IMG/VR virus record: IMGVR_UViG_3300036715_000140
Coordinates: 1-25,615 of that record
Source of the DNA: a virus
Length of the DNA: 25,615 nt
Strand: one strand, 5' to 3'
Shown here: positions 616 to 22,734 of the stretch, piece by piece
Numbering within the stretch: the first letter of the stretch is position 1
Layout of the letters: each line of letters opens with the position of its first letter
Translations under genes and position numbers: made by a program
The notes under the pieces: generated by a model
Databases searched by the model: none
What the model was told of the DNA's origin: nothing
What the model saw: only the letters and a program-made list of their open reading frames with translations

Positions 616-2451
616 ATGCTGACTTACGACTACGAAACTGAGGGCATTGTAGGTAATCCTATCTACAACCCACCCAAGCCTGTGGGAGTGTCCCTCAAGG
701 TGGATGATGCCCCCAGCGAATACCTCGCCTGGGGGCATCCCACGGGGAATAACTGCAGGTGGGAGGACGCCCGCGCCCGGGTGCTGGAAGCATTCCACAA
801 GCATAAGGAACGGCTAGCGCACAACGCGCCGTTCGAATCCGCTATTGACCGAGCACACTTTGGTTGGCACAACAAGGATCCACTCAACCAGCACGACACA
901 CAGTACCTACTATTCCTGGCTGACCCGTACGCGTTCAGCTTTAGTCTTAAGCCCAGCGCGCACCGCATCCTCGGCCTGCCCCCTGACGAGCAGGATGACG
1001 TAAAGTCCTGGGTACTGACTAACGTGCCGGAGTCCAAGGCCAGCGACTGGGGCGCCTACATCTGCCGCGCTCCGGGCGACTTAGTGGGCCGCTACGCCAT
1101 TGGTGATACCGACCGCACCTACGCACTGTTCCAACATCTGTACCCCAAGGTGCTGGAGGCTGGCATGCTGGAACCATACCGGCGAGAGCAGAAACTAGCC
1201 CCCATACTCTCTGCAAGCAGTCTGCGGGGCGTACGGCTGGACTGTCAGGGACTCAGTAGGGACATTGAGGTGTACTTACGGTCCAAGCTCATGGCGGAGG
1301 ATTACATTCACCGCATGCTGGGTGACTTCAACATAGACAGCGATCGGGAGCTGGCCGAGGCTCTGGACCGTGCCGGGCAAGTGTCCAGCTGGGTACTTAC
1401 CCCCACGGGCAAGCGTAGCACTGCGCGCAAGAACCTTGTGGGACGCGTCAAGGACCCCGCCCTGCTGCACTGCCTAGCCTACAGGGGTGTGCTGGCTACG
1501 TGCCTGGGTACGTTTGCGGGGCCGTGGCTGGAGCAAGCGCTAGCCGAGGGCGGCCGGGTGCACCCGCAATGGAACCAAGTGCGCGGAGACAAGGGCGCGG
1601 ATGGCGACATGTCCGGCGCACGCACGGGGCGCATGTCTTGCCGCGGACCCAATCTACAGAACCCGCCCAACGACTTTGAAGGTCTTGTGGTCCCTACAGA
1701 CATTGAGGAGTTCTTCCTCAAGCAGGGACTTGATATTCCTATGGTCCCCCACATGCGGCGCTACCTGCTGCCGGAGGAGGGCCACATATGGATTAAGCGT
1801 GACTTCAGCGCCCAAGAGATGCGCATCATGGCCCACTTTGCCGAGGGGCGGCTGTACAGCGCATTCCGAGCAGACCCGACTACGGACCCCCACGTGGCAG
1901 TACAGAAAATGATCAAGGAACTGCTGAACATCGACATGCCGCGCAAGTTTGTGAAGATCACGGGCTTCGGCATCATGTACGGACGAGGGGTGCCTAACTT
2001 GTCCCTGGCACTGGGAGTCGACCCCGTGGAGGGTAAGCGAGTGCGGGATGCGTACTACGCTGCCCTGCCGGAGATCCAGCAACTGAGTTACGACACACGC
2101 AGCCGTGGCAAGCGGGGCCAGTTTATCCGTACGTGGGGAGGCCGGGTGTACTACCGAGAGCCAGATCCTGCACGAGATCTGTCCTACAAACTTCTCAATT
2201 ATCTCGTGCAGGGAAGTGCCGCAGACCAGACCAAGCAGTCCATCATTGATCACGACACTGAGCGTGCTCCCACAGACGTGCTGCTGGCCGCCGTGCATGA
2301 TGAAATTAATGTCAGCGCCCCCATTGACGACCGTGCCGGTGCCATGCTGCGGCTGCGCGTCGCCATGGATAAGGACCGGTTTGACGTGCCCTTCCGTAGC
2401 GAAGGGTTTAGCGGCCCCAACTGGGGCGACATTACGGAGTACGAAGTATGA
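616..2451 (+). CDS. Family A DNA polymerase with 3'-5' exonuclease domain
   Basis: This is the phage replicative DNA polymerase of the PolA/T7 type, 611 residues. The N-terminal proofreading domain shows exonuclease motif I with Asp5 and Glu7 (YDYETEG), motif II around LAHNAPFES, and motif III in YAIGDTDRTY. The polymerase domain shows motif A (DFSAQEMR, metal-binding Asp396), motif B (RKFVKITGFGIMYG, residues 443-456, with the O-helix Lys and Tyr), and motif C (HDE, residues 561-563). No 5'-3' exonuclease domain is present, as usual for phage enzymes of this type, and at 611 residues it is shorter than T7 gp5 (about 700). The ATG at 616 follows AAGGAG at 605-610 at good spacing. The stop overlaps the next start as ATGA, so it begins a translationally coupled run of replication and nuclease genes. 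Confidence 0.95.
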   Translation: MLTYDYETEGIVGNPIYNPPKPVGVSLKVDDAPSEYLAWGHPTGNNCRWEDARARVLEAFHKHKERLAHNAPFESAIDRAHFGWHNKDPLNQHDTQYLLFLADPYAFSFSLKPSAHRILGLPPDEQDDVKSWVLTNVPESKASDWGAYICRAPGDLVGRYAIGDTDRTYALFQHLYPKVLEAGMLEPYRREQKLAPILSASSLRGVRLDCQGLSRDIEVYLRSKLMAEDYIHRMLGDFNIDSDRELAEALDRAGQVSSWVLTPTGKRSTARKNLVGRVKDPALLHCLAYRGVLATCLGTFAGPWLEQALAEGGRVHPQWNQVRGDKGADGDMSGARTGRMSCRGPNLQNPPNDFEGLVVPTDIEEFFLKQGLDIPMVPHMRRYLLPEEGHIWIKRDFSAQEMRIMAHFAEGRLYSAFRADPTTDPHVAVQKMIKELLNIDMPRKFVKITGFGIMYGRGVPNLSLALGVDPVEGKRVRDAYYAALPEIQQLSYDTRSRGKRGQFIRTWGGRVYYREPDPARDLSYKLLNYLVQGSAADQTKQSIIDHDTERAPTDVLLAAVHDEINVSAPIDDRAGAMLRLRVAMDKDRFDVPFRSEGFSGPNWGDITEYEV

Positions 2452-2636
2452 AGCACTTTCTACGTGCATTTGGCTGGTCTGGCATGCTGCTAACCGGAAT
2501 GTCAAATGGAATAGCCGTATATTTAGACGTTCTACCGTATCGACTAGGCGTGGCAGCGTTTGATGGAATGCTGATAGGTGGAATGATAGTCATGCACCTA
2601 GTTGATAAGTATCTAATTTCTGGGGACCAAGAATGA
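2448..2636 (+). CDS. Small two-helix membrane protein of unknown function
   Basis: This 62-residue protein starts at an ATG inside the stop of the polymerase gene (ATGA overlap) and ends in another ATGA overlap with the following nuclease, so it is translated as part of that transcript. Two hydrophobic stretches, about residues 8-28 and 34-52 (VAAFDGMLIGGMIVMHLVD), look like membrane helices. Codon use is more AT-rich than in its neighbours. I do not recognise the family. The size and hairpin topology fit a holin or an inner-membrane host-takeover peptide, but no lysis genes lie nearby, and lodging between a polymerase and a nuclease is unusual for a holin. The tight overlaps on both sides support it as a real gene. 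Confidence 0.65.
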   Translation: MKHFLRAFGWSGMLLTGMSNGIAVYLDVLPYRLGVAAFDGMLIGGMIVMHLVDKYLISGDQE

Positions 2637-3358
2637 CTGACCTTCTTTCCAAGCCCGTGTTCCGCTGGAGCTTTAGCCAGTGGGAGTCTTACAACCAGTG
2701 CCCGCAGAAGTGGAAGTTCCAGTCTCGGATGAAGCTGCCACGCAAGCCCCCAGGTCCAGCGGCTGCACGCGGACTGCGGATGCACGACAGCGTGGAGCGC
2801 TACATTCAGGGCGAGCCAGTTAGCGTTCTGCACCCAGACATCAAGACTAAGTACATTCCAATTCTGGATGCGTTCCGCAACCACCCCAACGGGGACCGGC
2901 ACACGGAAAAGAAACTGGCGTTCGACGCTGACTGGTCCTTGTGCGGCCCCACTAGTCAGTACGCGAGCTGTATCGCGGTGCTGGATGCAGCTCGCTACTG
3001 CAAGGACGTGCGTAACACGCTCAACGATCCTCCACTTGGGGTACTGCACATTGGAGAGTGGAAGAGCGGCAAGCCCAAGGATACGCACGCGGACCAGCGC
3101 AAGCTATATGCCATGTTCGGTAAGCGGGCATGGCTGGCTGACCGCGTAGAAGTGACTACCTACTACCTGGAAGACACTGCACCCCCGCAGCGCATCGTAC
3201 TGGAGTCCGACTCTGGGTACGAGAAACTGAGACTCCTGTGGGAGGATCGTATCAGCACCATGCAGCGCGACCAAATCTGTGCCCCGCTTCCGGAGTTCTA
3301 CTGCCGGTTCTGCGACTACGCTAAGGCGTTCGGCGGACCGTGTCAGTTCGGGACATAG
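2633..3358 (+). CDS. RecB/Cas4-like PD-(D/E)XK nuclease with a four-cysteine (Fe-S type) cluster
   Basis: A 241-residue nuclease of the PD-(D/E)XK superfamily, probably acting on DNA ends or single strands in phage replication or recombination. The N-terminus has the WSFSQWESYNQCPQKW motif typical of AddB/Cas4-type proteins, with Cys23. Candidate active-site residues are His51, Asp118, and the pair Glu142 and Lys144 in GEWKSGK, followed by a DQRKLYA helix matching the Q-x3-Y motif (Gln155, Tyr159). The C-terminus has Cys224, Cys227 and Cys237. With Cys23 these match the four ligands of the 4Fe-4S cluster in AddB, Cas4 and related phage exonucleases. The start overlaps the preceding stop (ATGA). 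The family is confident; the substrate is not visible from sequence. Confidence 0.85.
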   Translation: MTDLLSKPVFRWSFSQWESYNQCPQKWKFQSRMKLPRKPPGPAAARGLRMHDSVERYIQGEPVSVLHPDIKTKYIPILDAFRNHPNGDRHTEKKLAFDADWSLCGPTSQYASCIAVLDAARYCKDVRNTLNDPPLGVLHIGEWKSGKPKDTHADQRKLYAMFGKRAWLADRVEVTTYYLEDTAPPQRIVLESDSGYEKLRLLWEDRISTMQRDQICAPLPEFYCRFCDYAKAFGGPCQFGT

Positions 3359-3364
3359 CGCGCT

Positions 3365-3685
3365 GTGCGCGAGTCCTACATAGAGGGTCGCGTAGTGTCA
3401 TGGGCCAAGGCCCATGACATTCTGCCCCTAAAGCTAAGCGCGGATAGCGACACGGGCTGGCCGGACCGATTCTGGCTGTTCTATTATCCAGCAGTAGCGT
3501 TCATCGAGTTTAAGGCCCCTGGCAAGCGGCCCCGCAAGCTCCAAGAACTGCGCATTGCTGAACTCAAGCGACGGGGCTACCCCGTGGAGGTGATTGATGA
3601 TGTCGATGCAGGAATCCAATTTCTTAAGTCTGCCCTCCTGGGTGCCCCGCAAGTACCAGGAACAGGCCGTACGGCTGGGCGTTAG
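3365..3685 (+). CDS. VRR-NUC domain endonuclease
   Basis: A 106-residue stand-alone VRR-NUC (PD-(D/E)XK) nuclease. The core motifs are an N-terminal Glu7, GWPDRFW with Asp34, EFK with Glu48 and Lys50, and Gln60 on the following helix (RKLQELRIAELKRRGYPVEVIDD). Stand-alone VRR-NUC proteins are frequent next to SNF2-type helicases in phages, and that is the arrangement here. The start is a GTG at 3365, seven bases after the previous stop, with only a weak ribosome binding site, so expression may rely on coupling. The last 89 bases overlap the helicase gene in another frame. The C-terminal tail after about residue 90 is low in recognisable features and is probably constrained mainly by that overlap. 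Confidence 0.85.
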   Translation: MRESYIEGRVVSWAKAHDILPLKLSADSDTGWPDRFWLFYYPAVAFIEFKAPGKRPRKLQELRIAELKRRGYPVEVIDDVDAGIQFLKSALLGAPQVPGTGRTAGR

Positions 3686-5009
3686 CCAAGCGTGTGCGGG
3701 GTTCCTGCTGCGCCCTGGCATGGGCAAGACCACGATCATGTACGCTATAATCAGTATACTGCTTAAGAAGAAGATCAATAAGCGAGCGTTAGTCATTGCC
3801 CCCATAAAGCCGATGTACAACGTATGGCCCCGCCAGTGCGCCGCGTGGGAGGACTTTAAGCACCTCCGCGTGGGGGTGGCACACGGCAAAGCCCGAGTAC
3901 AGGTGCTTAAGAACTCAGAGCTTGACATCGTAGTAATCAACCCTGAGGGGCTAGAGTGGCTAGAGGACCACGCGGAGTATGTGCGTGCCAACTTCGACAT
4001 ACTAGTTACCGATGAATCAACTAAGTTCAAGAACACGGGTAGTCAGCGGTTCAAGCGACTGAAGAAGCTGGTTAAGCACTTCAAGCGCAGGTACATACTC
4101 ACGGGCAGCTTTACACCCCAGGGGCTACTAGACCTGTTTGGACAGGTGTATATTCTGGACGAGGGGGCCGCATTGGGAAGATACATCACGCACTACAGGT
4201 CTAAGTACTTCTATCCTACGGACTACATGGGGTACAGCCTAGCACCGCACCCCTGGGCCGCGGAAGAGATTGCCAAGAAGATAGCCCCGCTTACTCTGGT
4301 CTTGGAGCGAGAGGGCAACTTAGTGATGCCGGAACTACTCCCCTGCAATGACATACTGGTAGATATTCCCACCGCTGCCCGCGCAAAGTACGACACTATG
4401 CTCCGAGAACTCGTTGCTAAGCTGGACACAGATGAGTTTGCTGTGGCTGCGAATGCCGCCGTGGCTACCAGCAAGTGCAGGCAAATCGCTAACGGGTTTA
4501 TGTTCACTGGCCTACGAGAAGGCGAGTGGGAGGACGTGCACACTGAAAAGATCGACGCGCTTACCGACCTTATTGACCAACTGTCTGGGGAGTCTCTACT
4601 CGTAATCTACGAGTTTACTCCGGACTTGGAAAAGTTGAAGAAGGCGCTGCCCGGCGCCCTAGTGCTGACTACCGGGAATGCCAGGAAGGATGATCAGTCT
4701 ATCGCGGTGTTCGCGGCTGGGTTGGCCCCTGTGGCGCTGGCGCAGGTCACCAGCATCAGCCTAGGCATTGACGGTCTGCAGAATGGGTGCAGTAACGTAT
4801 GCTTCTACAGTCTTACGTGGAACTTGGAGGCGTATAGTCAGACCATAGACCGAGTGTGGCGTAGTGGACAGAAGTCTCCCGTAGTGAGCGTTCATCGACT
4901 GATTGCAAAGGACACAGTAGACGAGAGGGTACTATCTGTGCTGGGGAACAAGGAGGCCACTCAGACAGACTTCCTTGCACTGCTAAAGTCCATGCGGGAT
5001 AGCGTGTAG
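3597..5009 (+). CDS. SNF2-like superfamily 2 helicase/ATPase
   Basis: A 470-residue SF2 DNA helicase or translocase of the SNF2 type, common in phage replication modules. The N-terminal ATPase lobe has a Q-motif-like RKYQEQAV, Walker A RPGMGKTT (residues 39-46), motif Ia LVIAPI, motif II DEST (139-142) and motif III LTGSFTPQ. The C-terminal lobe has motif V around SISLGIDGLQNG and motif VI QTIDRVWRSGQ (415-425), which is the SNF2 form with the arginine finger. I chose the ATG at 3597 because GGAGG at 3586-3590 sits six bases upstream; ATGs at 3600 and 3606 are alternatives. It overlaps the VRR-NUC gene by 89 bases, suggesting a nuclease-helicase pair. It ends the replication block, before a promoter-like element at 5044. 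Confidence 0.9.
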   Translation: MMSMQESNFLSLPSWVPRKYQEQAVRLGVSQACAGFLLRPGMGKTTIMYAIISILLKKKINKRALVIAPIKPMYNVWPRQCAAWEDFKHLRVGVAHGKARVQVLKNSELDIVVINPEGLEWLEDHAEYVRANFDILVTDESTKFKNTGSQRFKRLKKLVKHFKRRYILTGSFTPQGLLDLFGQVYILDEGAALGRYITHYRSKYFYPTDYMGYSLAPHPWAAEEIAKKIAPLTLVLEREGNLVMPELLPCNDILVDIPTAARAKYDTMLRELVAKLDTDEFAVAANAAVATSKCRQIANGFMFTGLREGEWEDVHTEKIDALTDLIDQLSGESLLVIYEFTPDLEKLKKALPGALVLTTGNARKDDQSIAVFAAGLAPVALAQVTSISLGIDGLQNGCSNVCFYSLTWNLEAYSQTIDRVWRSGQKSPVVSVHRLIAKDTVDERVLSVLGNKEATQTDFLALLKSMRDSV

Positions 5010-5944: not shown

Positions 5945-6736
5945 ATGCAAATATTCATTCCGACGATGCGTCGTATTGGTCTCCAGCATACGCTGGAAGA
6001 TCTAACTGGCGCCAGTCCGTACCCCATTACGCTCGTGTGTCCGTATGATGAGTGGGACAACTACTCCGCGGAGTATTCAACTCGTCTTGATGTGAGTACA
6101 GTATCCCCACCCAAGGGCGTTGTGGGCATTGCAGCCACGCGCCAGTGGATCATGGAACAGGCTACTGCGGATCATGTTCTGATGCTGGATGATGACTTGA
6201 CCTTTGCCAAGCGCAGACACGACGAGCCAGAGAAGTTCTGCACCCCCACGAAGGACGATCTTCGTTGGATGCTACAACAGGTCCACGCGCTGCTGCACAA
6301 GTACGCGCACGTGAGCATCGCCACCCGGGAGGGGGGAAACCGCAACACAGAGGAACTACTGCACTGCACCCGGGTAACCCGGGTTATCGGCTACGACAGG
6401 GCCAAGTTCTTCGAGGCGGGCACTGACTTCCGTAGTTCCACTGTGATGGACGATTTTGAAGCCACTCTGCACCTACTCACCCGTGGGTACGAGAACGTGA
6501 TTTTGAACAGCTTTGTGCAGAACCAGCGCGGCAGCGGAACCAAGGGCGGAGCATCTACGTACCGCACACTGGAGATGCACCGGCAGGCAGCCCTGACTCT
6601 GGCGGCGCGCTACCCTAAGTTTGTGCGCGCTGTGCAGAAGCGTACGAAGACCGCATGGGGTGGCGCTGAGCGCACCGACGTCGTCGTACAGTGGAAGAAG
6701 GCCCTGCAATGGGGCAAGGAGCACCATAGTGTCTGA
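5945..6736 (+). CDS. TET/JBP-associated-type glycosyltransferase (TAGT-like), putative DNA base glycosyltransferase
   Basis: A 263-residue GT-A-fold glycosyltransferase. The nucleotide-sugar and metal-binding acidic motif is LMLDDDLTF (Asp82-84). Other conserved-looking blocks are GIAATRQWIM (61-70), STVMDDFEATLHLL (165-178), GTKGGASTYRT (198-208) and a terminal VVVQWKKAL (246-254). These blocks, in this order, resemble the family that Iyer and Aravind described as TET/JBP-associated glycosyltransferases, which are thought to glycosylate hydroxymethylated bases in phage DNA. That assignment is from memory of motif order and needs a profile search. Context supports it, because the next two genes belong to thymine hypermodification families. 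The sugar donor is unknown; ADP-heptose made by the downstream block is a candidate. The end overlaps the next gene by 8 bases. Confidence 0.75.
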   Translation: MQIFIPTMRRIGLQHTLEDLTGASPYPITLVCPYDEWDNYSAEYSTRLDVSTVSPPKGVVGIAATRQWIMEQATADHVLMLDDDLTFAKRRHDEPEKFCTPTKDDLRWMLQQVHALLHKYAHVSIATREGGNRNTEELLHCTRVTRVIGYDRAKFFEAGTDFRSSTVMDDFEATLHLLTRGYENVILNSFVQNQRGSGTKGGASTYRTLEMHRQAALTLAARYPKFVRAVQKRTKTAWGGAERTDVVVQWKKALQWGKEHHSV

Positions 6737-7613
6737 CCATCTAACTGCTGAGCTTGTGTACTGGATTACTGAGCGCTACGCTGTAAAGCTCCGGCGCCAG
6801 GAGGGGCTAGCAAGGCCCTGGAGCGCAGACCGCATTTTCCAGACCGTGCGCTTCTGCAACGTACACCGAGAGGATGATGCTGTAACCCAGTGGATTCGTC
6901 AGAACTGGTCTGATTATCACAGCCCTGCGTGGTGGTTTGTTCTTGGTAGAACGTTGAACTACGTTCCTACTCTGGAAGACATCGTTTTCTATGGAGTAGA
7001 TTCTGTAGACGGTGCTCGCGGCGAGGACTCACTACCGACCTTGGATGGCCTTCGTGATGGTCTTAAGGCCAAGAGAGAAGCAGGAGAAAAGATATTCACC
7101 AGTGCGTACACCATCAGCACATGTGGTAAGAAGATGGACAAGATTGATTACGTGCTAGAGGTAGTCGAGGCAGTAAAGGCCGCGGATGCGATGACCCTAA
7201 CTAGGTTCCCACGAACTACCAGTCTGCAGTCTGCGTGGGAAGACCTACAGGGCATAGACGGCCTTGGCAGTTTCCTGGCCGCACAAGTGGTGGCAGATAT
7301 GAAGAACACCCGGAACCACCCCCTAGCCATGGCCCCGGACTACTGGACGTTCAGTGCCCCTGGCCCCGGCAGCCTGCGCGGTCTGAGCTGGTACTTCTAT
7401 CCGGAGGACATGAAGAATGAGCGTCAATGCGTGACCGCTGGGGGGTACGCTGTAGCGCTTAGAGAGTGTCGTGCAGAGGTTGACCCGCTGGTGGCGGCCT
7501 ACGTGCCGCGCATTTCTGATCAAGATTTCCAAAACTGCCTGTGCGAGTTCAGCAAGTACTGCAAGGTCAAGTACCTGAGCGGGCACGTGCGCAATAAGTT
7601 CCAAGGAGCATGA
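6729..7613 (+). CDS. 5-hmdU DNA kinase/amino-acid:DNA transferase helical-domain family protein (thymine hypermodification)
   Basis: A 294-residue protein of the helical family once called alpha-glutamyl/putrescinyl-thymine pyrophosphorylase, later linked to 5-hydroxymethyl-dU DNA kinases and amino-acid transferases in phages such as ViI, M6, SP10 and phiW-14. Diagnostic blocks are RPWSADRIF with RFCNVHREDD (29-50), FTSAYTIST (123-131), a helix-hairpin-helix-like DGLGSFLAAQVVADM (177-191) and TFSAPGPGSLRGL (207-219). No Walker A/P-loop is visible, so this protein alone is unlikely to be the kinase; it more likely recognises or processes the modified base in DNA. The start is a GTG at 6729 with AAGGAG seven bases upstream, overlapping the glycosyltransferase gene by 8 bases. 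Product-level function is inferred. Confidence 0.8.
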   Translation: MSDHLTAELVYWITERYAVKLRRQEGLARPWSADRIFQTVRFCNVHREDDAVTQWIRQNWSDYHSPAWWFVLGRTLNYVPTLEDIVFYGVDSVDGARGEDSLPTLDGLRDGLKAKREAGEKIFTSAYTISTCGKKMDKIDYVLEVVEAVKAADAMTLTRFPRTTSLQSAWEDLQGIDGLGSFLAAQVVADMKNTRNHPLAMAPDYWTFSAPGPGSLRGLSWYFYPEDMKNERQCVTAGGYAVALRECRAEVDPLVAAYVPRISDQDFQNCLCEFSKYCKVKYLSGHVRNKFQGA

Positions 7614-7616
7614 ATT

Positions 7617-8579
7617 ATGAGCCACATACTGAACGCCACGAATGTGAACCAAGCGTTTAAGGACGCGCTGTGGTGGCTGCGTGCCGCTGGCAAGGAGGAG
7701 CGTAGCCGCAGTGGCCCGGTGCTGGTGGCGCCGGGCACATTCCAAACGCAGTACCACCGTCCCACGGAGCGCGTGCTGTTCAATCCGGACCGAGACTGTA
7801 ATCACGTGTTCCACCTGATGGAAGCTATCTGGATGTTTGCAGGCCGCAAAGATGTCGCGTACCTGCTACCGTTCAACTCCAAGTACAGTAGCTACGCCGA
7901 TAGTGGCGAAGTGCACGGTGCCTACGGCTGGCGCTGGCGGAACAGTTGGGGGGACCAGCTTACGGAAATCGTCAATGTCCTTCGCGCTGACAGATACAGC
8001 CGGCAGGCAGTCCTACAGATGTGGGACTACCACGAAGAGGACTTGACTGGCACGTGGAAGGACCGACCATGCAATACGCACGCGTACTTCGATCTCCGAG
8101 AGGGTGTGCTGAACATGACGGTGTGCTGTCGCAGTAACGACATGCTGTGGGGCGCCTACGGGGCCAACGTGGTGCACTTTAGCATGCTCCAGGAGCTGTT
8201 AGCCTGCGCCCTGGGTGTGCCTGTGGGGGTGTACAGGCAGTTTAGCAACAACTTCCACGTGTACACAGATCTTCCCATGGTCAAGAAGCTGCTGGACACC
8301 CCTCCTGCTGACGACTGGGACCTGTACGCCCGGGGCTTGGTAGCGCCCATCCCGCTGCTGGCACCGCGGGAGGAAATGTCCATGTTCTTGGAGGACTGCC
8401 AGTGGTTCTGTGACGGTAAGCCGCCGCGCACTAGCTTCCTCCGTACGGTGGCGGTCCCTCTGAGGGATGCCTATCTTGCTCGCAAGGCTGGGCAAGCGTG
8501 CGACCTCCGCAGCATACCACACTGCGACTGGAAGGTAGGCTTCGAGTACTGGCTTAAGAACCGGGGGATTGAGAAATGA
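7617..8579 (+). CDS. Thymidylate-synthase-family enzyme, probable dUMP (or dCMP) hydroxymethylase
   Basis: A 320-residue thymidylate-synthase-fold enzyme. The catalytic cysteine is Cys152 in DRPCNTHAYF. The phosphate-binding and substrate segment CRSNDMLWGAYGANVVHF (171-188) is the form seen in phage hydroxymethylases rather than in housekeeping ThyA (RSxDxxLGxPFNxxxY), and NFHVY (212-216) replaces the usual DxHxY. Asn184 occupies the region of the Asn that selects dUMP, whereas dCMP hydroxymethylases usually carry Asp there, so dUMP hydroxymethylase is my first choice. It would make 5-hydroxymethyl-dUMP with methylene-tetrahydrofolate, which the phage would incorporate in place of dTMP. It follows the hmdU-family protein directly (AAGGAG at 7603-7608), and both flanking genes fit a modification cassette. 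dCMP specificity is not excluded. Confidence 0.85.
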   Translation: MSHILNATNVNQAFKDALWWLRAAGKEERSRSGPVLVAPGTFQTQYHRPTERVLFNPDRDCNHVFHLMEAIWMFAGRKDVAYLLPFNSKYSSYADSGEVHGAYGWRWRNSWGDQLTEIVNVLRADRYSRQAVLQMWDYHEEDLTGTWKDRPCNTHAYFDLREGVLNMTVCCRSNDMLWGAYGANVVHFSMLQELLACALGVPVGVYRQFSNNFHVYTDLPMVKKLLDTPPADDWDLYARGLVAPIPLLAPREEMSMFLEDCQWFCDGKPPRTSFLRTVAVPLRDAYLARKAGQACDLRSIPHCDWKVGFEYWLKNRGIEK

Positions 8580-8932
8580 AAGAAGGACACGTAGAACAGG
8601 TCGGCGGCAGTCACTACCAGCGGGGGGATAAGTCCCAGCACTGGGACCTCGTTGCTGAGTACGAGTGGGACTACTTCCAGGCACAGATTATCAAGTACCT
8701 CATGCGGTGGAAGAGCAAGGGCACTACCCGCGCCAAGCGCCTTGAGGATTTGCAAAAGGCACGCAGCTTCCTGGACAAGTACATTCTGCTTGCCAGCGTC
8801 TACGACCAGCGCGAGGACGGCGGCGTACTGCACCCAACTGGGGCACGCGCCACCCCCAGCGCAGCGCAGCAGGAGCCCTCAGGTGCCGCCAGCGGCAGCC
8901 ACCCGGGGCCTGGGTACGTAAACCAGGGCTAG
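8576..8932 (+). CDS. DUF3310 (SaV-like) phage protein, putative nucleotide-kinase-associated
   Basis: A 118-residue protein that starts inside the stop of the hydroxymethylase gene (ATGA). The first 70 residues carry the DUF3310 signature: VGGSHYQ near the N-terminus, a WDLVAEYEWDYFQAQIIKYL helix, and RWKSKGTTRAKRLEDLQKARSFLDKY. The family is widespread in phages and is loosely annotated as a nucleotide kinase of unknown specificity, but I see no P-loop here. The C-terminal 40 residues are a low-complexity Ala/Pro/Gly tail that looks disordered. Coupling to a dNMP-modifying enzyme suggests a role in nucleotide supply; this is inference. Confidence 0.85.
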   Translation: MKEGHVEQVGGSHYQRGDKSQHWDLVAEYEWDYFQAQIIKYLMRWKSKGTTRAKRLEDLQKARSFLDKYILLASVYDQREDGGVLHPTGARATPSAAQQEPSGAASGSHPGPGYVNQG

Positions 8933-9236: not shown

Positions 9237-9436
9237 TCAAGATATTCAACAGATTCCAGCCCACTCTAGTGGACGAAGTAGCTCGCCAACTGCGAGAGAT
9301 GGAATTCCAAGCGCTGGACGCAGCTCGTCACAAGGAGCACTACGCCGCCTTGGAGATTGCGGCTACACAGGGCATTGGCAGGCTACGTGCACAGTTCAAC
9401 AAGCTGACGGCTACAAAGGGAGCGCAGGATGCCTAA
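9233..9436 (+). CDS. Small helical hypothetical protein
   Basis: A 67-residue protein starting at the ATG at 9233 within the previous stop. The sequence is almost all amphipathic helix (TLVDEVARQLREMEFQALDA through LEIAATQGIGRLRAQF), with no cysteines or catalytic-looking motifs. I do not recognise it. The end overlaps the heptose kinase start by 8 bases, so it is translationally coupled to the ADP-heptose genes. It may be only a passenger in the transcript. Confidence 0.6.
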   Translation: MIKIFNRFQPTLVDEVARQLREMEFQALDAARHKEHYAALEIAATQGIGRLRAQFNKLTATKGAQDA

Positions 9437-10325
9437 GATCTTAGTGCTGGGGGACACAATGCTGGACGTAGCGTACGTGGGCCAGTGTACACGGGTCAGC
9501 CCAGAGGCTCCCGTACCCATCTTGTCTGTGCTGAGCAGGCACAATTACGCGGGCGGAGCGGCCAACGTCGCACTGAATCTCCGTGCCATGGGGGCGGACG
9601 TCACTATTGTGCATGCCTGTGGAGTGGATCCGGCTGGCAAGCTGCTGCACCGCATGCTCACAGCAGCAGGAGTGCGCAGCTTGCAGGCCGCCACAGAGCG
9701 CACAACCACCAAGACTCGTGGGTTTGTGGACCACCGCCAGGTATTCCGGTTTGACGAAGACAACCCCGCAAGCGCTCCCACGGCCAGAGAGTGTATGGCA
9801 CAGGCGGCGGGGCTGCTTGCCAGCCACGACGCGCTAGCGATTGCTGACTATGGCAAGGGCGTCACTGACTACCTGGGTACTGCTTTAATACAGCAGGCGT
9901 ACGACGAACACAAGCCTGTCTATGTGGATCCGCATGGTCATGACTGGGACAAGTATGCGGGTGCCCTGGTGATAAAGGCCAACGAGCACGAGGTTGCCGA
10001 CTGCTTGCAGTATGACGAGGATGCTGTCACGCGCATTCGCGCTAGACATCTTGTTGTGACCATGGGAAAGCATGGGTCTAAGCTCGTGACACGAGAGTCG
10101 GATCACCTGTACCCCGCCCCCAACGCGCTGCACGACTGCGACCCCACGGGTGCGGGGGATAGCTTCTTCGCACAGATGGTGCTGGCACACGTGGATGGCA
10201 ACCCCTGGCCCGTGGTGATGCGCCGCGCCAATGTGGCCGGCATGCTGGCAGCGCGGCAGCGCGGCATCGCGGTCATTTCTGAACGAGACATTAAGGAGTA
10301 TCTGGATGAAAACGACTCTGTCTGA
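9429..10325 (+). CDS. hldA: D-glycero-beta-D-manno-heptose-7-phosphate kinase (HldA / HldE kinase domain)
   Basis: A 298-residue PfkB/ribokinase-fold kinase closely resembling the N-terminal domain of HldE (RfaE). It would phosphorylate D-glycero-D-manno-heptose-7-phosphate to the 1,7-bisphosphate. Diagnostic features are VLGDTMLD at residues 5-12, the heptose-kinase-specific RVSPEAPVP, the substrate loop YAGGAANVALNL, ADYGKGV, YVDPHGHDWDKYAGA, and the PfkB signature DPTGAGDSF with the catalytic base Asp244. The SPEAPVP motif separates heptose kinases from ordinary ribokinases. The length fits a stand-alone kinase, with the adenylyltransferase encoded separately two genes downstream; such split HldA/HldC forms occur in several beta-proteobacteria. 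The start at 9429 overlaps the preceding gene by 8 bases, and the end overlaps gmhA by 20. Confidence 0.92.
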   Translation: MPKILVLGDTMLDVAYVGQCTRVSPEAPVPILSVLSRHNYAGGAANVALNLRAMGADVTIVHACGVDPAGKLLHRMLTAAGVRSLQAATERTTTKTRGFVDHRQVFRFDEDNPASAPTARECMAQAAGLLASHDALAIADYGKGVTDYLGTALIQQAYDEHKPVYVDPHGHDWDKYAGALVIKANEHEVADCLQYDEDAVTRIRARHLVVTMGKHGSKLVTRESDHLYPAPNALHDCDPTGAGDSFFAQMVLAHVDGNPWPVVMRRANVAGMLAARQRGIAVISERDIKEYLDENDSV

Positions 10326-10896
10326 CACCCTTGCTGAGCTAGATAAGCAAGTGGAGCACCTTGTATCTGTTCTTCGCACCACGAGCGATCAATCCACTGT
10401 GGTTGGTTCCATGCTGCACGCGCTGTACACGTGTCTGCAGACAGGGGGGACCGTCTACTTCTGCGGTAATGGGGGTAGCGCTGCGGACTGCCAGCACCTA
10501 GCCGCAGAGATGATGGGTAGGTTCAAGGATCATCGTCGATACGGATGGCCCGCCGTATCTCTAACGACCGATACATCCGTACTTACCGCCATAGCCAACG
10601 ACTATGGCTACGAGCACGTGTTTGAGCGCCAGGTGCAGGTACTGTGTGGTCCGGCGGACGTGCTGGTGTGTATGAGTACTTCTGGGACTAGCAAGAATGT
10701 TCTACTCGCTGCGGAAGCTGCCCGCAGGAACGAGTCCACTGTTCTTGCATTCACGGGGCATGGCGGAAGTGCCCTGGCCGCGCTGGCACACACCACGCTG
10801 ATAGTACCTAGTACTGACACCGCGCGTATCCAGGAAGCGCACATATTCATCGGTCACGTGTTGTGCGGTCTGCTTGAGGAGGAGCTAGCGCAATGA
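10306..10896 (+). CDS. gmhA: Sedoheptulose-7-phosphate isomerase (GmhA)
   Basis: A 196-residue SIS-domain isomerase that converts sedoheptulose-7-phosphate to D-glycero-D-manno-heptose-7-phosphate, the first step of ADP-heptose synthesis; the length is normal for GmhA (about 192). Recognition features are FCGNGGSAADCQHLAAE (residues 52-68), STSGTSKNVLLAA for phosphate binding (124-136), and RIQEAHIFIGHVLC (174-187). His64, Glu68, Gln176 and His184 match the His-Glu-Gln-His zinc set of E. coli GmhA. I chose the ATG at 10306 because AAGGAG lies seven bases upstream (10293-10298). It overlaps the kinase gene by 20 bases, and its own stop overlaps the next start (ATGA). Confidence 0.92.
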   Translation: MKTTLSDTLAELDKQVEHLVSVLRTTSDQSTVVGSMLHALYTCLQTGGTVYFCGNGGSAADCQHLAAEMMGRFKDHRRYGWPAVSLTTDTSVLTAIANDYGYEHVFERQVQVLCGPADVLVCMSTSGTSKNVLLAAEAARRNESTVLAFTGHGGSALAALAHTTLIVPSTDTARIQEAHIFIGHVLCGLLEEELAQ

Positions 10897-11306
10897 TCAA
10901 GATCGCATTCACCAACGGGTGCTTTGACCTCCTGCACGCGGGACATGTACAGTTCCTGCAGAAGTGTGCAACGCTGTGCGATGAACTGCACATCTTCCTT
11001 AATGAGGATGTCTCCGTAGCTAGACTAAAAGGCACTGGCAGGCCCATAGCGCCCCTAGAGCAGCGCAGGACGATGGTGCTTGCGGTGGTTCCTACGGCGG
11101 TGCTACGCGGGTTCCAAGAAGACAACCCGCTTAACCGTATGATACAGTGCGGAGTTACTCCAGATCTGTACATAAAGGGCGGAGATCTAAATCTCAAGAG
11201 CCCAGAAGTTGAGTGGTTCATGCAGCAGGGGGTGCCCGTGGTACTGGTGCCTAGAACGCTGGACATAAGCACTTCCCGCATCATCGGAAAGATCAAAAAT
11301 GGATAA
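10893..11306 (+). CDS. hldC: D-beta-D-heptose-1-phosphate adenylyltransferase (HldC / HldE C-terminal domain)
   Basis: A 137-residue nucleotidyltransferase of the cytidylyltransferase fold, matching the C-terminal domain of HldE. It would join ATP and heptose-1-phosphate to give ADP-D-glycero-beta-D-manno-heptose. Key motifs are FTNGCFDLLHAGH with the catalytic HxGH (His15, His18), RLKGTGRPIAPLEQR, the substrate motif YIKGGDLNLKSPEV, and STSRIIGKI near the C-terminus, equivalent to the usual STTxII. The ATG at 10893 overlaps the gmhA stop. It is a separate polypeptide, not fused to the kinase as in E. coli. The specific motifs (KGGD, PLEQR) point to the heptose enzyme rather than to glycerol-3-phosphate cytidylyltransferase. 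Confidence 0.92.
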   Translation: MIKIAFTNGCFDLLHAGHVQFLQKCATLCDELHIFLNEDVSVARLKGTGRPIAPLEQRRTMVLAVVPTAVLRGFQEDNPLNRMIQCGVTPDLYIKGGDLNLKSPEVEWFMQQGVPVVLVPRTLDISTSRIIGKIKNG

Positions 11307-11787
11307 GGCTCTATTTCTAGATCGAGACGGTACGCTGATCTTCGATCAAGGCTACATTGGGGACCCTGCGTACGTGCGCTTGCTGCCGGGCGTGGTGCAG
11401 CAGCTACGCCTAGCCGCTGCTGCGGGCTTCCTGCTGTTAGTGGTGACTAACCAGAGCGGCGTGGGACGAGGCAAGTTTACTAGACACCAAGCTGCACTAG
11501 TGCAGTCCCGGTTCTTAGATCTTTTGGAGAAGGAGGGGGTAGAACTAGATGGCTACTACGCCTGCTACCACGCACCAGAAGACGGCTGCCAGTGCCGTAA
11601 GCCGGCCCCTGGGCTGCTGCGGCTTGCCGCTGAGGATTACGAAATAGACTTCCGTAAGTCTATTATCGTAGGAGACCACGAGAATGATGTGGGGGTGACT
11701 GAACACTTCCCTGGATTGATGGCGTACCGGGTACTCAAGAATGAGCCGTGGGAACTATTTGCCGCCCCGCTGGCTACTACCCCCTAG
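11299..11787 (+). CDS. gmhB: D,D-heptose 1,7-bisphosphate phosphatase (GmhB)
   Basis: A 162-residue HAD-family phosphatase that removes the 7-phosphate from heptose-1,7-bisphosphate. It shows HAD motif I LDRDGTL (Asp8, Asp10), motif II VTNQSGVGRGKF (the GmhB/histidinol-phosphatase form), the zinc loop with Cys89, His91, Cys97 and Cys99, CRKPAPG with the motif III Lys101, and motif IV GDHENDV (Asp126, Asp130). The zinc loop is a few residues shorter than I would expect in the bacterial enzyme. It starts within the end of hldC (8-base overlap) and is the last rightward gene. With the previous three genes it completes ADP-D-glycero-D-manno-heptose synthesis. HldD, the 6-epimerase, is not encoded in this window. 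Confidence 0.9.
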   Translation: MDKALFLDRDGTLIFDQGYIGDPAYVRLLPGVVQQLRLAAAAGFLLLVVTNQSGVGRGKFTRHQAALVQSRFLDLLEKEGVELDGYYACYHAPEDGCQCRKPAPGLLRLAAEDYEIDFRKSIIVGDHENDVGVTEHFPGLMAYRVLKNEPWELFAAPLATTP

Positions 11788-11837: not shown

Positions 11838-13154
11838 CTACTTGTACTGGCAGTGCAGCGCGTAGCCCAGCGCATGCAGCGCGGGGAGCTGAGTCCTCAG
11901 TTCCTCGCCGACATCATCACGGACAATGGGGTTGGCAACATGCAGTTTTTCCACAGTGCCATAGGCGCGCTTAGCCGCCTGACTCACGCTAGCCCCGTAA
12001 CCCGTGATAACTGCCACGTAGTCCCCAGCGGTGGCCCACATTTCTCTCTCCACAATTCCCTTACCGTCCGGTCCCTGGTCCGGCAACTTCATAATCTGTA
12101 CGGCCTGTGGGTGGACGTGTATAGCTGTGCCCTTCGTCACCCCATACACTGGCACCCCGCTGACTTGCTTCTTGGTGAAGTTCCCATGCGGAAAGTCCCC
12201 GTGAGCAAGCACCAAGCAGCAGCCGATGTCTTCAGAGAATGTGGTAGTGTCTTTACCCTGGAGCGCGTCCCGCATCCACTCCACGGGATCACCCTTCGTA
12301 GCACCGAGCATCATGTTTGCTATGGGCCAGCCCAAGCGGCAGGTCCATTCCGTGGGCCAGGGCTTGCCCTTGTCGTCAATCATAAAGCCCAGTGCGGTGT
12401 CCCCCCGGTGCCCACGCTTGAGCAGCTCGTCCTCCAGCTTACCGAGCGTGTCACGGCCGAGCTTGGACTGCTCTGTGAAGTACGCGATGGTCCCCATCTC
12501 TCCGGTATTTGGGCCATAGTTACTAGACATCAGCTTCTTATGCTCGAAGCTCTCGTTCCACTGACCTACCCAGCCCTTACTGCCCATAAAGCGGGACACG
12601 CCCATTTCAATCCCCTTGACGAACTGCTGTAGCATCACCTCCCCCTTGGGTGGGGGCGTGCGGCGCATCCAGGCAACAAGGTCCGCAGGGCTCTTGGAAA
12701 CGTAAGTCAGGCTCTTGTCTTCATTGTCTCCCAACGTCTTGAATACGTACCGCTCTTCAGTCTTGAGTACGTGCTTCTCCGCTGCGGCCATGCTAGGAAA
12801 CGTCTGATACGGAACGCACTCGATCCCCGCCTTCTCAAGAATCTGCATTCCGTCCTTGCGAGAAATTTCCAGCTTGGCGCTGGCCGGCGTGGGGGCGAAT
12901 ACGGGGTAGCCCTTCTTGCTGAAGAACTCTAGACGTTCCAGATAGTCATCATTGCTGGTAGCAATGACTAGGTCCGCCCAGCCCATGCTGGGAACCCAGT
13001 TATCTACCTTGGCGATGTTCTTGAACCCCTTGCCGATGTCTTTGCTGTTAGACTCTCGCGGCTTAACGAACCAGCGCACTTGGTGCCCAGCATCACGTGC
13101 ACGGATTGCAAAGCTGAGACCTACACCGTCATGATCAATTATTAGCAGCTTCAT
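11838..13154 (-). CDS. PurD-like ATP-grasp ligase (phosphoribosylamine-glycine-ligase family), substrate unknown
   Basis: A 438-residue ATP-grasp enzyme with PurD-like order: a diverged N-terminal domain (MKLLIIDHDGVGLSFA), an ATP-grasp domain from about residue 95, VMLQQFVKGIEMGVS (173-187), YGPNTGEMGT (213-222; PurD has GPNTGGMG), PTEWTCRLGWP (267-277; PurD has EfNxRfGDPE) and a PurD-like C-terminal domain. The glycine-rich ATP loop is altered (FKTLGDNEDKSL in place of a GKGV type), and the RfGDPE motif has lost its acidic residues, so true purine synthesis is doubtful. It is the last gene of the leftward virion transcript and overlaps the preceding ejection-protein gene by 20 bases, with GAGGAG upstream of its ATG. 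It may ligate an amino acid to a nucleotide, base, sugar or protein; that is speculation. Confidence 0.75.
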   Translation of the reverse strand: MKLLIIDHDGVGLSFAIRARDAGHQVRWFVKPRESNSKDIGKGFKNIAKVDNWVPSMGWADLVIATSNDDYLERLEFFSKKGYPVFAPTPASAKLEISRKDGMQILEKAGIECVPYQTFPSMAAAEKHVLKTEERYVFKTLGDNEDKSLTYVSKSPADLVAWMRRTPPPKGEVMLQQFVKGIEMGVSRFMGSKGWVGQWNESFEHKKLMSSNYGPNTGEMGTIAYFTEQSKLGRDTLGKLEDELLKRGHRGDTALGFMIDDKGKPWPTEWTCRLGWPIANMMLGATKGDPVEWMRDALQGKDTTTFSEDIGCCLVLAHGDFPHGNFTKKQVSGVPVYGVTKGTAIHVHPQAVQIMKLPDQGPDGKGIVEREMWATAGDYVAVITGYGASVSQAAKRAYGTVEKLHVANPIVRDDVGEELRTQLPALHALGYALHCQYK

Positions 13155-19768: not shown

Positions 19769-20721
19769 TCTTCAGCTCCCGGTTGGAAGAATAGCTCTGT
19801 GTTCTCAGACCCCTGGTTCCTAGCGATAGCAATCGCGCTATTCTTCAACTGTTCCATCTTCTGGCTCCAGCTGGACTTGAACATGGGAGAAATCTGTTCA
19901 CTGAGTCCCCAGCACAGAGCCAAGTACCACTCCTGGGGGTAGTATGGCGTATCCCCTGCGGCATTGAAGTCCTGCACTGGTTCCAGGTAGGTGATCACGA
20001 TGTGCTTAGACACATCTTGCGCACCGCCACAGTCAGTGTACACAGTGGCAGAAGAAATTCCGCGCTCGTAGTAGATGGCCGTGGGATCACTGATGTTAGT
20101 GGGGTCTACCTTGTTGGGGAGGTAGTCGTACGACTGTACTGTCATCAGCTTAAGCTGGGTGTCCGTCTGGTCGGAGTCCCGAAGCAGCGCGGTCTCTACG
20201 TGTACAGGAACCTGCGCCGCAGTCTGGTACACGAAAGCTGAATTCCCACTACTGGCCTGACTAGGCAGAGCCCCCACAAGGTTGACCACACTGCCAACAA
20301 CTGAGGACACGGTAGTCCAGTAGATAATCCCGCTATCCAGCTCTACGCCGATAGCATACGTACTGGCGATGCCCGTTACGCTGCTCACAGCCACCGAAGT
20401 AGCCGCCGCTGCGGACGCCACAGTCAGCGTAGGATAGACGTAGCTGTTGGTCCAGCCAGTGGCGCTGGGGCCAACTGTGTACGCCCCAGTGTTCCCCTGC
20501 AGAAACAGATGGCCCCGTTTGCGTGTCCACACCTTTAGCCCAGGCGCGAAGTCAGCCTTGCCCATCCACTGCTTGCACATCAGATTCAGCACCCGTGCGC
20601 AGTCCGAAGTTTCTGACGTCGTAGGGCTCTCGTCTGGGTCCAGCCGCTGAATATTCAGCATGGCCTGACGGATAATGTCGTCACGAGTGACGGTGAAGCT
20701 GTATGTGCCGCTGGTAGTCAT
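19765..20721 (-). CDS. Tail accessory / head-completion adaptor protein (P22 gp4 position)
   Basis: A 318-residue protein starting at the ATG at 20721, inside the stop of the FkbM-like gene (ATGA). The N-terminus (SFTVTRDDIIRQAMLNIQRLDPDESPTTSE, then CARVLNLMCKQWM) is the helical adaptor segment common to podovirus tail accessory proteins. It is followed by a beta-rich insert (residues about 80-170, many Ser/Thr/Val) and a C-terminal helical part (YYPQEWYLALCWGLSEQISPMF). Such proteins form the ring joining portal and tail. It is larger than P22 gp4 (166 residues) because of the beta insert, and it has no visible lysozyme-like catalytic motif. The assignment rests on N- and C-terminal pattern and position. 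Confidence 0.75.
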   Translation of the reverse strand: MTTSGTYSFTVTRDDIIRQAMLNIQRLDPDESPTTSETSDCARVLNLMCKQWMGKADFAPGLKVWTRKRGHLFLQGNTGAYTVGPSATGWTNSYVYPTLTVASAAAATSVAVSSVTGIASTYAIGVELDSGIIYWTTVSSVVGSVVNLVGALPSQASSGNSAFVYQTAAQVPVHVETALLRDSDQTDTQLKLMTVQSYDYLPNKVDPTNISDPTAIYYERGISSATVYTDCGGAQDVSKHIVITYLEPVQDFNAAGDTPYYPQEWYLALCWGLSEQISPMFKSSWSQKMEQLKNSAIAIARNQGSENTELFFQPGAEE

Positions 20722-21200
20722 TGCGCATACTCCATACCTGGAAACAGGTCCGTAGTCACTGGTGCCAGCCACTCCACCGGCAGCCCGTGGGGGACGCACA
20801 GCATATTCAAAGACCCAACGCCAGGGAATACGTCCACTGGGTTGTCCGCATGGATGTCCAGGTCTGCGCAGCCAAGTTCTCCGTCTACATCTCCTACGGC
20901 AATCTGCAAAGGAGTCACGTTGTACAGACTATTCAGCGCCAGGGTGCCGCGCAGGGCGTTCATTACCATGCGCTGCGGCTCCACCGCGCAGACGTGCGCG
21001 GCACGCTTGGCGAACACCAGAGTATGCGCGCCGAAGTTAGCCCCAATGTCTGCGACTACCATGCCCGGTTGGACGATAGCGTCAAACAGCCCCACCTCTC
21101 CCTCCGAGAATTCTCCATACTCCACCAAGCTGCGGCCAAGGTAGCGGTCAGTGCTGGGGACGATAATCCGTCCGTGCCTAGAATCGACGACGGTAATCAT
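20718..21200 (-). CDS. FkbM-type SAM methyltransferase, C-terminally truncated
   Basis: A 160-residue protein starting at the ATG at 21200, with GGAG six bases upstream. The Rossmann SAM-binding motif VVADIGANFGAHTLVFAK (48-65), the CAVEPQ acidic loop (71-76) and LNSLYNVTPLQIAVGD (89-104) identify an FkbM-family O-methyltransferase, usually acting on sugars or glycans. Full FkbM domains continue with a TLD...IKIDVEGxE segment carrying catalytic residues. Here the frame stops at about the TLD position (PVTTDLFPGMEYAQ), so the last 50-80 residues are missing. The stop is an ATGA overlap with the gp4-like gene. It may be inactive or repurposed. Its pairing with the GT9 fusion suggests glycan modification. 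Confidence 0.8.
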   Translation of the reverse strand: MITVVDSRHGRIIVPSTDRYLGRSLVEYGEFSEGEVGLFDAIVQPGMVVADIGANFGAHTLVFAKRAAHVCAVEPQRMVMNALRGTLALNSLYNVTPLQIAVGDVDGELGCADLDIHADNPVDVFPGVGSLNMLCVPHGLPVEWLAPVTTDLFPGMEYAQ

Positions 21201-22734
21201 TAAGCGCTCCACTGATGGCGGCCCACGCTTGGTCCACCGTAATGTCTGCTTGGCACTGCGCGGTGCCCGTGGCAGGGTCTCGCTTGCAGTGCTCCCAGCC
21301 ATAGTGTAGCACGTGGCAGGCGGGGGCAGTGTCGTTACCCCGGCCAGGGCACACCGTACCCACGGAAGTCAGCGGGTACACGTTGGTCCAGTCTCGCGTC
21401 AGGTTCTCGTGTGTAGAATGACTGAGGAACACCACCTTGGGCATGGGCATACAGGCCGCAGCGTTGAGTACGCCAGTCTCAGGTCCAATTACGAGATCAC
21501 ACTCTTCTAGGAATGACAGCGTCTGACGAATGGTCCACTCACCTGACTTGCATATCACACGCTTTTCCTGCTCCCAGCCGGCTTCTAGCATCTTGCATTC
21601 CGGTCCACCGGCCAGCACCACGCGGCAATGCGGGTACTCTAGCATTAGCGCGGCCAGCACGTGGTCCAGCCCAGCCCACGTCTTGTGCACGGAACTACCG
21701 GCCAGGGACCAGAGAATAACCTGCTCCCCACCCATGCGCTGCCGTTGCTGGCGTGCCCATGCCTTTTCCTCCACGGTAGCGTAAAACTTAACGGCCAGCC
21801 TGTAGGGCACCTCGGCAATAGCGTGCTGCATCTCTACGTAGTTCTTGTCAGTGAGCAGGTGGCGGACCCGTGGGGGGTAGAAGTGTAGGGTACGCCCAGG
21901 CATGGCGAGGAATGTGCCCTCCACTGACTCACTGAGGTTTACGAACTTAGTGAACTTCTTCCGCTGCCAGTTCCAGAAGTCCACCAGGTTCCCATTGGGC
22001 ACCTGGTCCTTGTCGAAGAGAACATGCTTGTCGACGTTGGGATCATTAGCCACAGCGTCAGAGCCCGGCAGACTAGAGAACAGAGTTACGTGGTAGCCCT
22101 CGGACTTAAGTGCTGCGAACACACTGCTGGCCTGCATCAGATCACCAAACGCGCCGTACCGCACCACACACGCAGTCTTTTCTGGTCTGGGGTCCAGGTA
22201 GCTAGCCTTCCGTTCCTTGCCCTGTAGCTTCTGCACCACGAGCAGGAAGCTGTATTCCTGGTTTTCGTTCCGCTCTTGGCACTCCAGCACATCGTGCCCA
22301 TTGGGGAGCATTGCGATGACGTCAGCAGGTAGAAAATCGTGCTTGTGGTCTGGATTGCAGCCCCTGGTGCCTATGTTGGGGTAGAACAGCTTGTGCGGCA
22401 GGTACAAAACCAAGTAGCCCCCGTGCCGTAGCACGCGCCACCACTCTCGTACGGCTCCAGCAGCGTCCTCGATGTGCTCCAGCGTATGACTGGAGTACAC
22501 AAAATCCATGGACTGGCTACCAAATACGTCTAGCTTAGCGGCGTCGCACAGTACGTCGGGCCTAGTCTGGAACCCGAACGCCGCATGGTGCATGTTATCT
22601 ACCGTGGTGGCGTGGGGCAGAATGCGGAAGTCTCCAGCCCCAATATCAAGCCCCCTACCCTTGAGGTAGGGGGCTACTTCCCACACGATCTTCTTAGATT
22701 CGTTGCACTGCGGGTCGTCAATTTTCCATACCAT
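21178..22734 (-). CDS. Fusion of SAM methyltransferase and GT9 (ADP-heptose:LPS heptosyltransferase-like) domains
   Basis: A 518-residue two-domain protein. Residues 1-170 are a class I methyltransferase: GLDIGAGDFRIL (28-39), the acidic VTVDN strand end, HTLEHIED (83-90) and WWRVLRHGGYLVLYLPH. Residues 187-515 resemble glycosyltransferase family 9: VVRYGAFGDLMQASSVFAALK (split at 190-210), a nucleotide-side loop LWSLAGSSVHKTW (341-353), VVLAGGPE, and DLVIGPETGVLNAAACMPMPKV (413-434). In classical heptosyltransferases the last block reads D-T/S-G-x-x-H; here it is ETGVLN, so two usual residues are changed. GT9 enzymes transfer heptose from ADP-heptose, which this phage appears able to make. 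The acceptor is unknown. It lies between the tail spike and tail genes. Confidence 0.85.
   Translation of the reverse strand: MVWKIDDPQCNESKKIVWEVAPYLKGRGLDIGAGDFRILPHATTVDNMHHAAFGFQTRPDVLCDAAKLDVFGSQSMDFVYSSHTLEHIEDAAGAVREWWRVLRHGGYLVLYLPHKLFYPNIGTRGCNPDHKHDFLPADVIAMLPNGHDVLECQERNENQEYSFLLVVQKLQGKERKASYLDPRPEKTACVVRYGAFGDLMQASSVFAALKSEGYHVTLFSSLPGSDAVANDPNVDKHVLFDKDQVPNGNLVDFWNWQRKKFTKFVNLSESVEGTFLAMPGRTLHFYPPRVRHLLTDKNYVEMQHAIAEVPYRLAVKFYATVEEKAWARQQRQRMGGEQVILWSLAGSSVHKTWAGLDHVLAALMLEYPHCRVVLAGGPECKMLEAGWEQEKRVICKSGEWTIRQTLSFLEECDLVIGPETGVLNAAACMPMPKVVFLSHSTHENLTRDWTNVYPLTSVGTVCPGRGNDTAPACHVLHYGWEHCKRDPATGTAQCQADITVDQAWAAISGALNDYRRRF

Follow-up and report, generated by a model that had tools for sequence, protein, structure and literature searches.

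Predicted synthesis and glycosylation of 5-hydroxymethyl-deoxyuridine by a phage gene cassette with a TAGT-family glycosyltransferase in the kinase position

The virus record IMGVR_UViG_3300036715_000140 (25,615 bases, class linear, probably a fragment of a phage genome) was analyzed over its whole length, which is here called the window. It codes for three tightly packed proteins: a TAGT-family glycosyltransferase, a protein of the HMUDK_hel (aGPT-Pplase1) family that is devoid of a kinase domain, and an enzyme with the thymidylate synthase (TS) fold. We consider it likely that this cassette makes, and then glycosylates, 5-hydroxymethyl-deoxyuridine (hmdU) in phage DNA. In relatives, the position of the glycosyltransferase gene may instead be occupied by a 5-hmdU kinase, as in phage M6, and the kinase/amino-acid route and the glycosylation route appear to be alternatives that operate on one core of hmdU and HMUDK_hel. 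Because the TAGT fills the kinase position, the product predicted for the window is most likely a glycosylated, base-J-like hmdU rather than an amino-acid-decorated thymine.

A sequence-only reading of this DNA had already proposed a thymine hypermodification cassette. The three open reading frames (ORFs) and the motifs quoted for them are present, and in profile searches all three proteins fall into the predicted families, above the curated Pfam cut-offs. The first gene (5945..6736, forward strand) codes for a GT-A type glycosyltransferase that matches PF20691 (3.1e-16, 60.4 bits versus a cut-off of 27.5) and phrog_842 (1.5e-43), which bears out its assignment as TAGT-like; we predict that it is a DNA 5-hmdU glycosyltransferase. 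Its DDD motif (MLDDDLTF) recurs as DDD in nearly all homologs. The product of the second gene (6729..7613, forward strand) carries the blocks RFCNVHRE and GPGSLRGL. PF18723 (HMUDK_hel) matches this protein over its whole length (5e-36, 124.9 versus 25 bits), and phrog_2396 is also found (4.3e-43). It had been called an hmdU-family protein, and the family stands; the assignment can be refined, as this is no more than the helical protein that partners the 5-hmdU kinase. The kinase itself (PF18748) had no match among the scanned ORFs of this fragmentary record. The third gene (7617..8579, forward strand), which contains the segment RSNDMLWGAYGAN, matches Thymidylat_synt (PF00303; 5.2e-18, 65.6 bits versus a cut-off of 24.3) and phrog_5131 (5.6e-91), in agreement with its earlier description as a hydroxymethylase; it is a predicted dUMP 5-hydroxymethylase. 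The TAGT and HMUDK_hel genes overlap by 8 bp, assuming that the latter starts with the GTG at 6729. This is most likely the start codon, although the mechanically called ORF opens with a TTG at 6621. The TS-like gene starts 4 bp past the HMUDK_hel stop codon.

The closest relatives of the TS-like enzyme are phage enzymes of the Pseudomonas M6, PaMx11 and Bordetella type (about 42% identity). In alignments, the enzyme is 43% identical to M6 gp058 and 43-45% identical to the M6 and Pam3 enzymes, versus 23% for T4 dCMP hydroxymethylase (gp42). The window enzyme, M6 gp058 and the Pam3 enzyme have in common the catalytic-cysteine region (RPCN) and the segment RSND-(L/I)WGAYGAN, and T4 dCMP hydroxymethylase differs there. 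The DNA of M6 contains 5-(2-aminoethyl)deoxyuridine, which is made via hmdU (PMC6449724). Because the enzyme resembles the M6/Pam3 type and not that of T4, and because the M6 modification proceeds via hmdU, modified thymine is a better prediction than modified cytosine, and hmdU would be the modified base. The sequence-only reading had named "thymine (or cytosine)"; the comparison of the enzymes favors the former and speaks against the latter.

A relative of HMUDK_hel is encoded at 75 viral loci, and a TS-like gene adjoins in nearly all of them, an association that chance does not explain. The gene order of the window trio is kept in dozens of viral contigs, and it is commonly embedded in a longer series: polA, a PD-(D/E)XK nuclease, an SNF2 helicase, a variable slot, HMUDK_hel, the TS-like gene, and a DUF3310 and/or HD nucleotidase gene. 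Across the relatives, the slot is occupied by a TAGT, a P-loop kinase, or a protein from one of two further families, c37 and the weakly GT4-like c45. In M6, it contains the kinase gp054 (HMUDK_HMUD1, PF18748, 7.7e-18), followed by gp055 (HMUDK_hel, PF18723) and gp058 (TS), while gp051 is an amino acid:DNA transferase (ADDT). M6 gp054 is recovered at 8e-32 by a profile built from the kinases of the slot. The TAGT of the window therefore stands where M6 and these relatives have a kinase. For the set of contigs compared, the HMUDK_hel tree implies five or more changes of the slot between kinase and glycosyltransferase. A scan of the viral contigs for TAGT returned no pattern match, although TAGT genes do adjoin HMUDK_hel. 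At one locus (L052:3318-5060), a TAGT beside HMUDK_hel is fused to radical SAM and SPASM domains, possibly indicating further modified sugar or base chemistry.

The content of the slot is reflected elsewhere in the genomes. ADDT (PF18724) is encoded in 12 of the 17 contigs with a kinase in the slot, but in none of the 28 with a TAGT or c37 and in none of the five with c37 plus kinase (Fisher p 2e-7, without correction for kinship). If a TAGT stands in for phosphorylation, loss of ADDT is to be expected, and its absence from the contigs with a glycosyltransferase in the slot fits. Many of the contigs are incomplete, but several of those with a glycosyltransferase in the slot are 50-95 kb long, so that fragmentation alone should not produce the contrast. 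No ADDT was found among the scanned ORFs of the window, which is itself a fragment.

The c37 family (about 300 aa; L012:4591-5496 and 37 other loci) is encoded adjacent to HMUDK_hel/TS. It has no Pfam or PDB match and no member in the phage isolate collection. Its invariant residues align to catalytic and UDP-binding residues of T4 beta-glucosyltransferase (beta-GT), and 9 of the 13 aligned invariant residues agree (including D100, R191, R269 and E272), compared to at most 8 in 150 shuffles. The similarity of c37 to beta-GT is suggestive only. Firm membership in the T4 beta-GT family was rejected, as the hhalign score (24.25) falls within the range obtained with shuffled beta-GT sequences (maximum 26.59).

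In an alignment of 38 HMUDK_hel sequences, 21 columns are invariant (R16, C43-N44-V45, R47-E48, D50, T53, R74, N77, A126, F182, D190, D204, G212-P213-G214, G218, C272-E273 and K276). These core residues are fixed irrespective of the slot, in 24 of 24 proteins that accompany a glycosyltransferase and in 12 of 12 that accompany a kinase. The AlphaFold2 (AF2) model of the window protein (pLDDT 90) has enzymes of queuine salvage (DUF2419), many DNA glycosylases and the PaMx11 5-PmdU glycinyltransferase (PUGT) as fold neighbors (Z 8-9). We infer that HMUDK_hel takes part in both chemistries as a partner that recognizes or presents the base. Such a helper is plausible in view of the substrate range of T4 beta-GT, which glucosylates single-stranded 5hmU and 5hmU:G mispairs but leaves 5hmU:A duplexes unmodified (PMC4111573).

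The cassette may thus function as follows. By homology to the M6/PaMx11 type, the TS-like enzyme (7617-8579) would hydroxymethylate dUMP, and the modified nucleotide would be incorporated instead of T. After replication, the helical protein HMUDK_hel (6729-7613), possibly with a fold like that of the HhH DNA glycosylase superfamily, would recognize and present hmdU. The TAGT (5945-6736) would then glycosylate the 5-hydroxymethyl group with a nucleotide-sugar as donor, which would result in a base-J-like nucleotide. In M6-like relatives, the slot would instead provide the 5-hmdU kinase, which would feed the amino acid:DNA transferase.

Two other chemistries have to be weighed against hmdU glycosylation. 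The modified base might be 5-hydroxymethylcytosine (hmC), glucosylated in the manner of T-even phages, and TAGT and phrog_842 are indeed best known from T-even hmC phages (PMC13216743). With a TS-like enzyme of the M6/Pam3 type, including its RSND-(L/I)WGAYGAN segment, at only 23% identity to T4 gp42, and with HMUDK_hel being tied to hmdU systems, we regard this as most improbable. The other is the M6-type pathway, in which hmdU is phosphorylated and an amino acid or amine is added, with the genes for kinase and ADDT lying outside the recovered fragment and the TAGT acting elsewhere. The window has both HMUDK_hel and an M6-like TS, and a fragment leaves room for such genes, but the kinase slot is filled by the TAGT and the 28 contigs with a glycosyltransferase in the slot lack ADDT, even those of 50-95 kb; it would be surprising if this pathway were realized. 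Several observations also weigh against glycosylation of hmdU by this cassette. The characterized TAGTs (from T2 and T6) put a second sugar on already glucosylated hmC rather than a first one on hmU (PMC13216743). In a complete circular 40 kb phage, no HMUDK_hel is annotated between the genes for a TAGT and a hydroxymethylase, so that some phages do without the partner. The fold matches of HMUDK_hel are middling for an all-helical protein (Z 8-9, Foldseek E >0.5). When kinship is taken into account, the ADDT contrast is reduced to three supported independent pairs (mean 2.5 for, 0 against), which is not significant. Finally, the window is a fragment. Even so, glycosylation of hmdU is the reading that we prefer.

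Directly downstream of the cassette is an ADP-heptose operon, which is absent from the list of features in the sequence-only reading. Four overlapping genes on the forward strand (9429-11787) cover all four activities of ADP-heptose biosynthesis, as judged from their sequences, with catalytic motifs intact. They encode an HldE-type kinase (9429..10325; TIGR02198 4.3e-61; motif DPTGAGD), the sedoheptulose-7-phosphate isomerase GmhA (10306..10896; PF13580 3.1e-23, TIGR00441 7.1e-51), an HldE-type heptose 1-phosphate adenylyltransferase (10893..11306; TIGR02199 1.6e-32; GCFDLLHAGH) and the heptose bisphosphate phosphatase GmhB (11299..11787; NF006506 1.5e-38, TIGR00213 1.1e-34; DRDGT). The GmhA motifs NGGSAAD..H...E and Q..H....H are kept in most homologs. 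All four proteins score under the NCBIfam equivalog cut-offs (e.g., 206.8 versus 345 bits for TIGR02198 and 172.3 versus 209.45 bits for TIGR00441), which is typical of diverged phage versions. The operon is found at the same place in sister contigs (L002, L003, L005, L006, L008-L010, L012 and L097), and in another one (L007) only GmhB remains. On the HMUDK_hel tree, its distribution corresponds to essentially one gain, followed by losses or truncation.

The window also contains a candidate consumer of ADP-heptose. The gene at 21178..22734 (reverse strand) codes for an S-adenosylmethionine (SAM) methyltransferase (PF08241 3.3e-11) that is fused to a GT9 (heptosyltransferase-fold) domain. On this domain, PF01075 scores 20.1-21.8 bits, just under the cut-off of 22; a homolog in contig G055 passes at 23.7. 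The best PDB matches of the AF2 model (pLDDT 72) are the GT9 structure 3tov (9.4e-15), WaaF (1psw; 2.6e-13), TibC and WaaC, and TibC was solved with ADP-D-D-heptose. PDB sequence searches with TAGT, HMUDK_hel and the GT9 profile returned nothing credible. More than 80 viral contigs have the methyltransferase-GT9 gene in the core of their structural module, where it always adjoins head/tail connector genes; in some relatives, methyltransferase and GT9 domain are encoded separately. The protein is perhaps involved in virion glycosylation. It is adjoined by an FkbM-family methyltransferase gene (20718-21302, reverse strand), which occurs in few relatives.

Two destinations of the heptose have been considered. 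Heptosylation of the DNA was our first leading hypothesis: the operon would supply the donor, and the TAGT (or c37 in sister phages) would attach D-glycero-D-manno-heptose to hmdU presented by HMUDK_hel. A contiguous operon on the same strand right behind the cassette speaks in its favor, as does the finding that full or partial heptose cassettes in HMUDK_hel contigs occur only together with a glycosyltransferase and never where the slot contains only a kinase. In addition, in an unrelated 95 kb contig (G062), the gene for an HldE-type kinase (TIGR02198 5.5e-87) separates HMUDK_hel from c37/TAGT. That hmdU cassette (L217:7025-15530) also comprises a P-loop protein, and neither GmhA (SIS_2) nor GT9 was matched anywhere in the contig. 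The hypothesis was demoted because heptose genes accompany methyltransferase-GT9 homologs in eight contigs without HMUDK_hel. Moreover, within the heptose clade the slot gene varies (two TAGT lineages and c37) while the operon persists, many TAGT phages lack heptose genes, and the TAGT tree does not cluster the heptose-positive phages. To our knowledge, the known DNA glycosyltransferases use UDP-sugars, which also counts against it. We know of no earlier description of heptose on DNA, and a literature search for it came up empty. Overall, we regard heptosylated DNA as unlikely.

According to the alternative, which is compatible with hmdU glycosylation and which we hold to be reasonably probable, the operon serves the methyltransferase-GT9 protein, which transfers heptose from ADP-heptose onto a protein of the virion or a glycan at the surface, where it is possibly methylated, unrelated to the DNA cassette. 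Apart from the fold matches (3tov, WaaF, TibC and WaaC), this is suggested by the presence of the gene in all heptose-positive contigs that are large enough to show it, and by its position next to the kinase gene in contig L243. Full or near full-length homologs were found in 8 of the 15 examined HldE- or GmhA-bearing viral contigs without an HMUDK_hel match, five of which had been picked because a homolog had already been seen; the other ten had been picked with no strong homolog in sight, and three of them were positive. On the other side, the PF01075 score stays just below its cut-off, and the GT9 gene is present in six 54-57 kb contigs that lack an HldE-type kinase, so that the GT9 protein may draw on ADP-heptose of the host or on a different donor. 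The idea that the GT9 gene always requires phage heptose genes was rejected, as many GT9 contigs lack them. The GT9 protein is thus the likelier heptose consumer, and the operon most likely supplies it rather than the TAGT.

Upstream of the cassette, the forward strand of the window codes for a family A DNA polymerase (616..2451; PF00476 3.6e-43), which belongs to the same module, a PD-(D/E)XK nuclease (2633..3358; PF12705 1.7e-11) and an SNF2-family helicase (3594..5009; phrog_62 1e-109, PF00176 4.1e-12), which is kept upstream of the slot in relatives. The next gene of the cassette (8576..8932, forward strand) codes for a DUF3310-like protein (PF11753 1.1e-4, just under the cut-off; phrog_5839 4.5e-15), with 51 clustered homologs in the neighborhoods of relatives. 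The window also codes for a PurD-like ATP-grasp protein (11838-13154, reverse strand; TIGR00877 7.6e-22, below the cut-off), with which the structural operon of many relatives ends as well. Searches for tRNAs and Rfam elements found none, and scans for promoters and terminators gave signals at chance level only. A host search by scanning genome contigs resulted in just five matches to metagenome-assembled genomes (MAGs) and no firm host. One contig of a Methylobacter sp. MAG (L223) bears a TAGT-HMUDK_hel-TS cassette, which may be a hint at the host range or a binned phage.

If the proposed function is correct, thymine hypermodification is built from modules: the same pair, an enzyme that makes hmdU and a protein that recognizes it, serves two routes, and swapping a single upstream gene selects between phosphorylation with amino-acid attachment and glycosylation. 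HMUDK_hel would then have to be seen as a module for hmdU recognition in general and no longer as a "kinase domain". The computations themselves show the family assignments, the gene order, the exchange in the slot, the contrast in ADDT and the fold of the GT9 domain. Solitary TAGTs occur in 288 of 753 phage genomes and were reported to be of undefined function (PMC13216743).

Among known systems, the M6/PaMx11 type (M6 gp054, gp055, gp058 and gp051) shares with the window the HMUDK_hel family, a TS-like enzyme with 43% identity and the order of slot, HMUDK_hel and TS. It differs in that the kinase is replaced by a TAGT in the window and that ADDT was not found in the relatives with a glycosyltransferase in the slot. 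Clusters with TS, aGPT-Pplase1 and TAGT are already known from pelagiphages: for the HTVC023P type, TS, aGPT-Pplase1, a beta-glucosyl-HMC-alpha-glucosyltransferase and a 5'-deoxynucleotidase were reported (PMC9599517). These clusters have the same gene combination near polA, and it was suggested there that they may broaden the M6 system; the excerpted account does not describe the slot exchange and the ADDT contrast (PMC9599517). The heptose operon and the GT9 module are features of the clade of the window. New here are the finding that kinase and glycosyltransferases replace each other in the same slot, the contrast in ADDT, c37 as a candidate family, and the neighboring heptose operon together with the GT9 protein as its probable partner. 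The T-even TAGT belongs to the same Pfam family (PF20691, beta-glucosyl-HMC-alpha-glucosyltransferase) and also has the DDD motif, but it extends a sugar already present on hmC, whereas the TAGT of the window adjoins an hmdU system and no alpha-glucosyltransferase is seen in the fragment. With base J of kinetoplastids (beta-glucosyl-hmU), the predicted product class of the window has in common a sugar on hmdU. Base J is, however, made by JBP oxidation and JGT, whereas the hmdU of the window would arise at the nucleotide level via the TS-fold enzyme.

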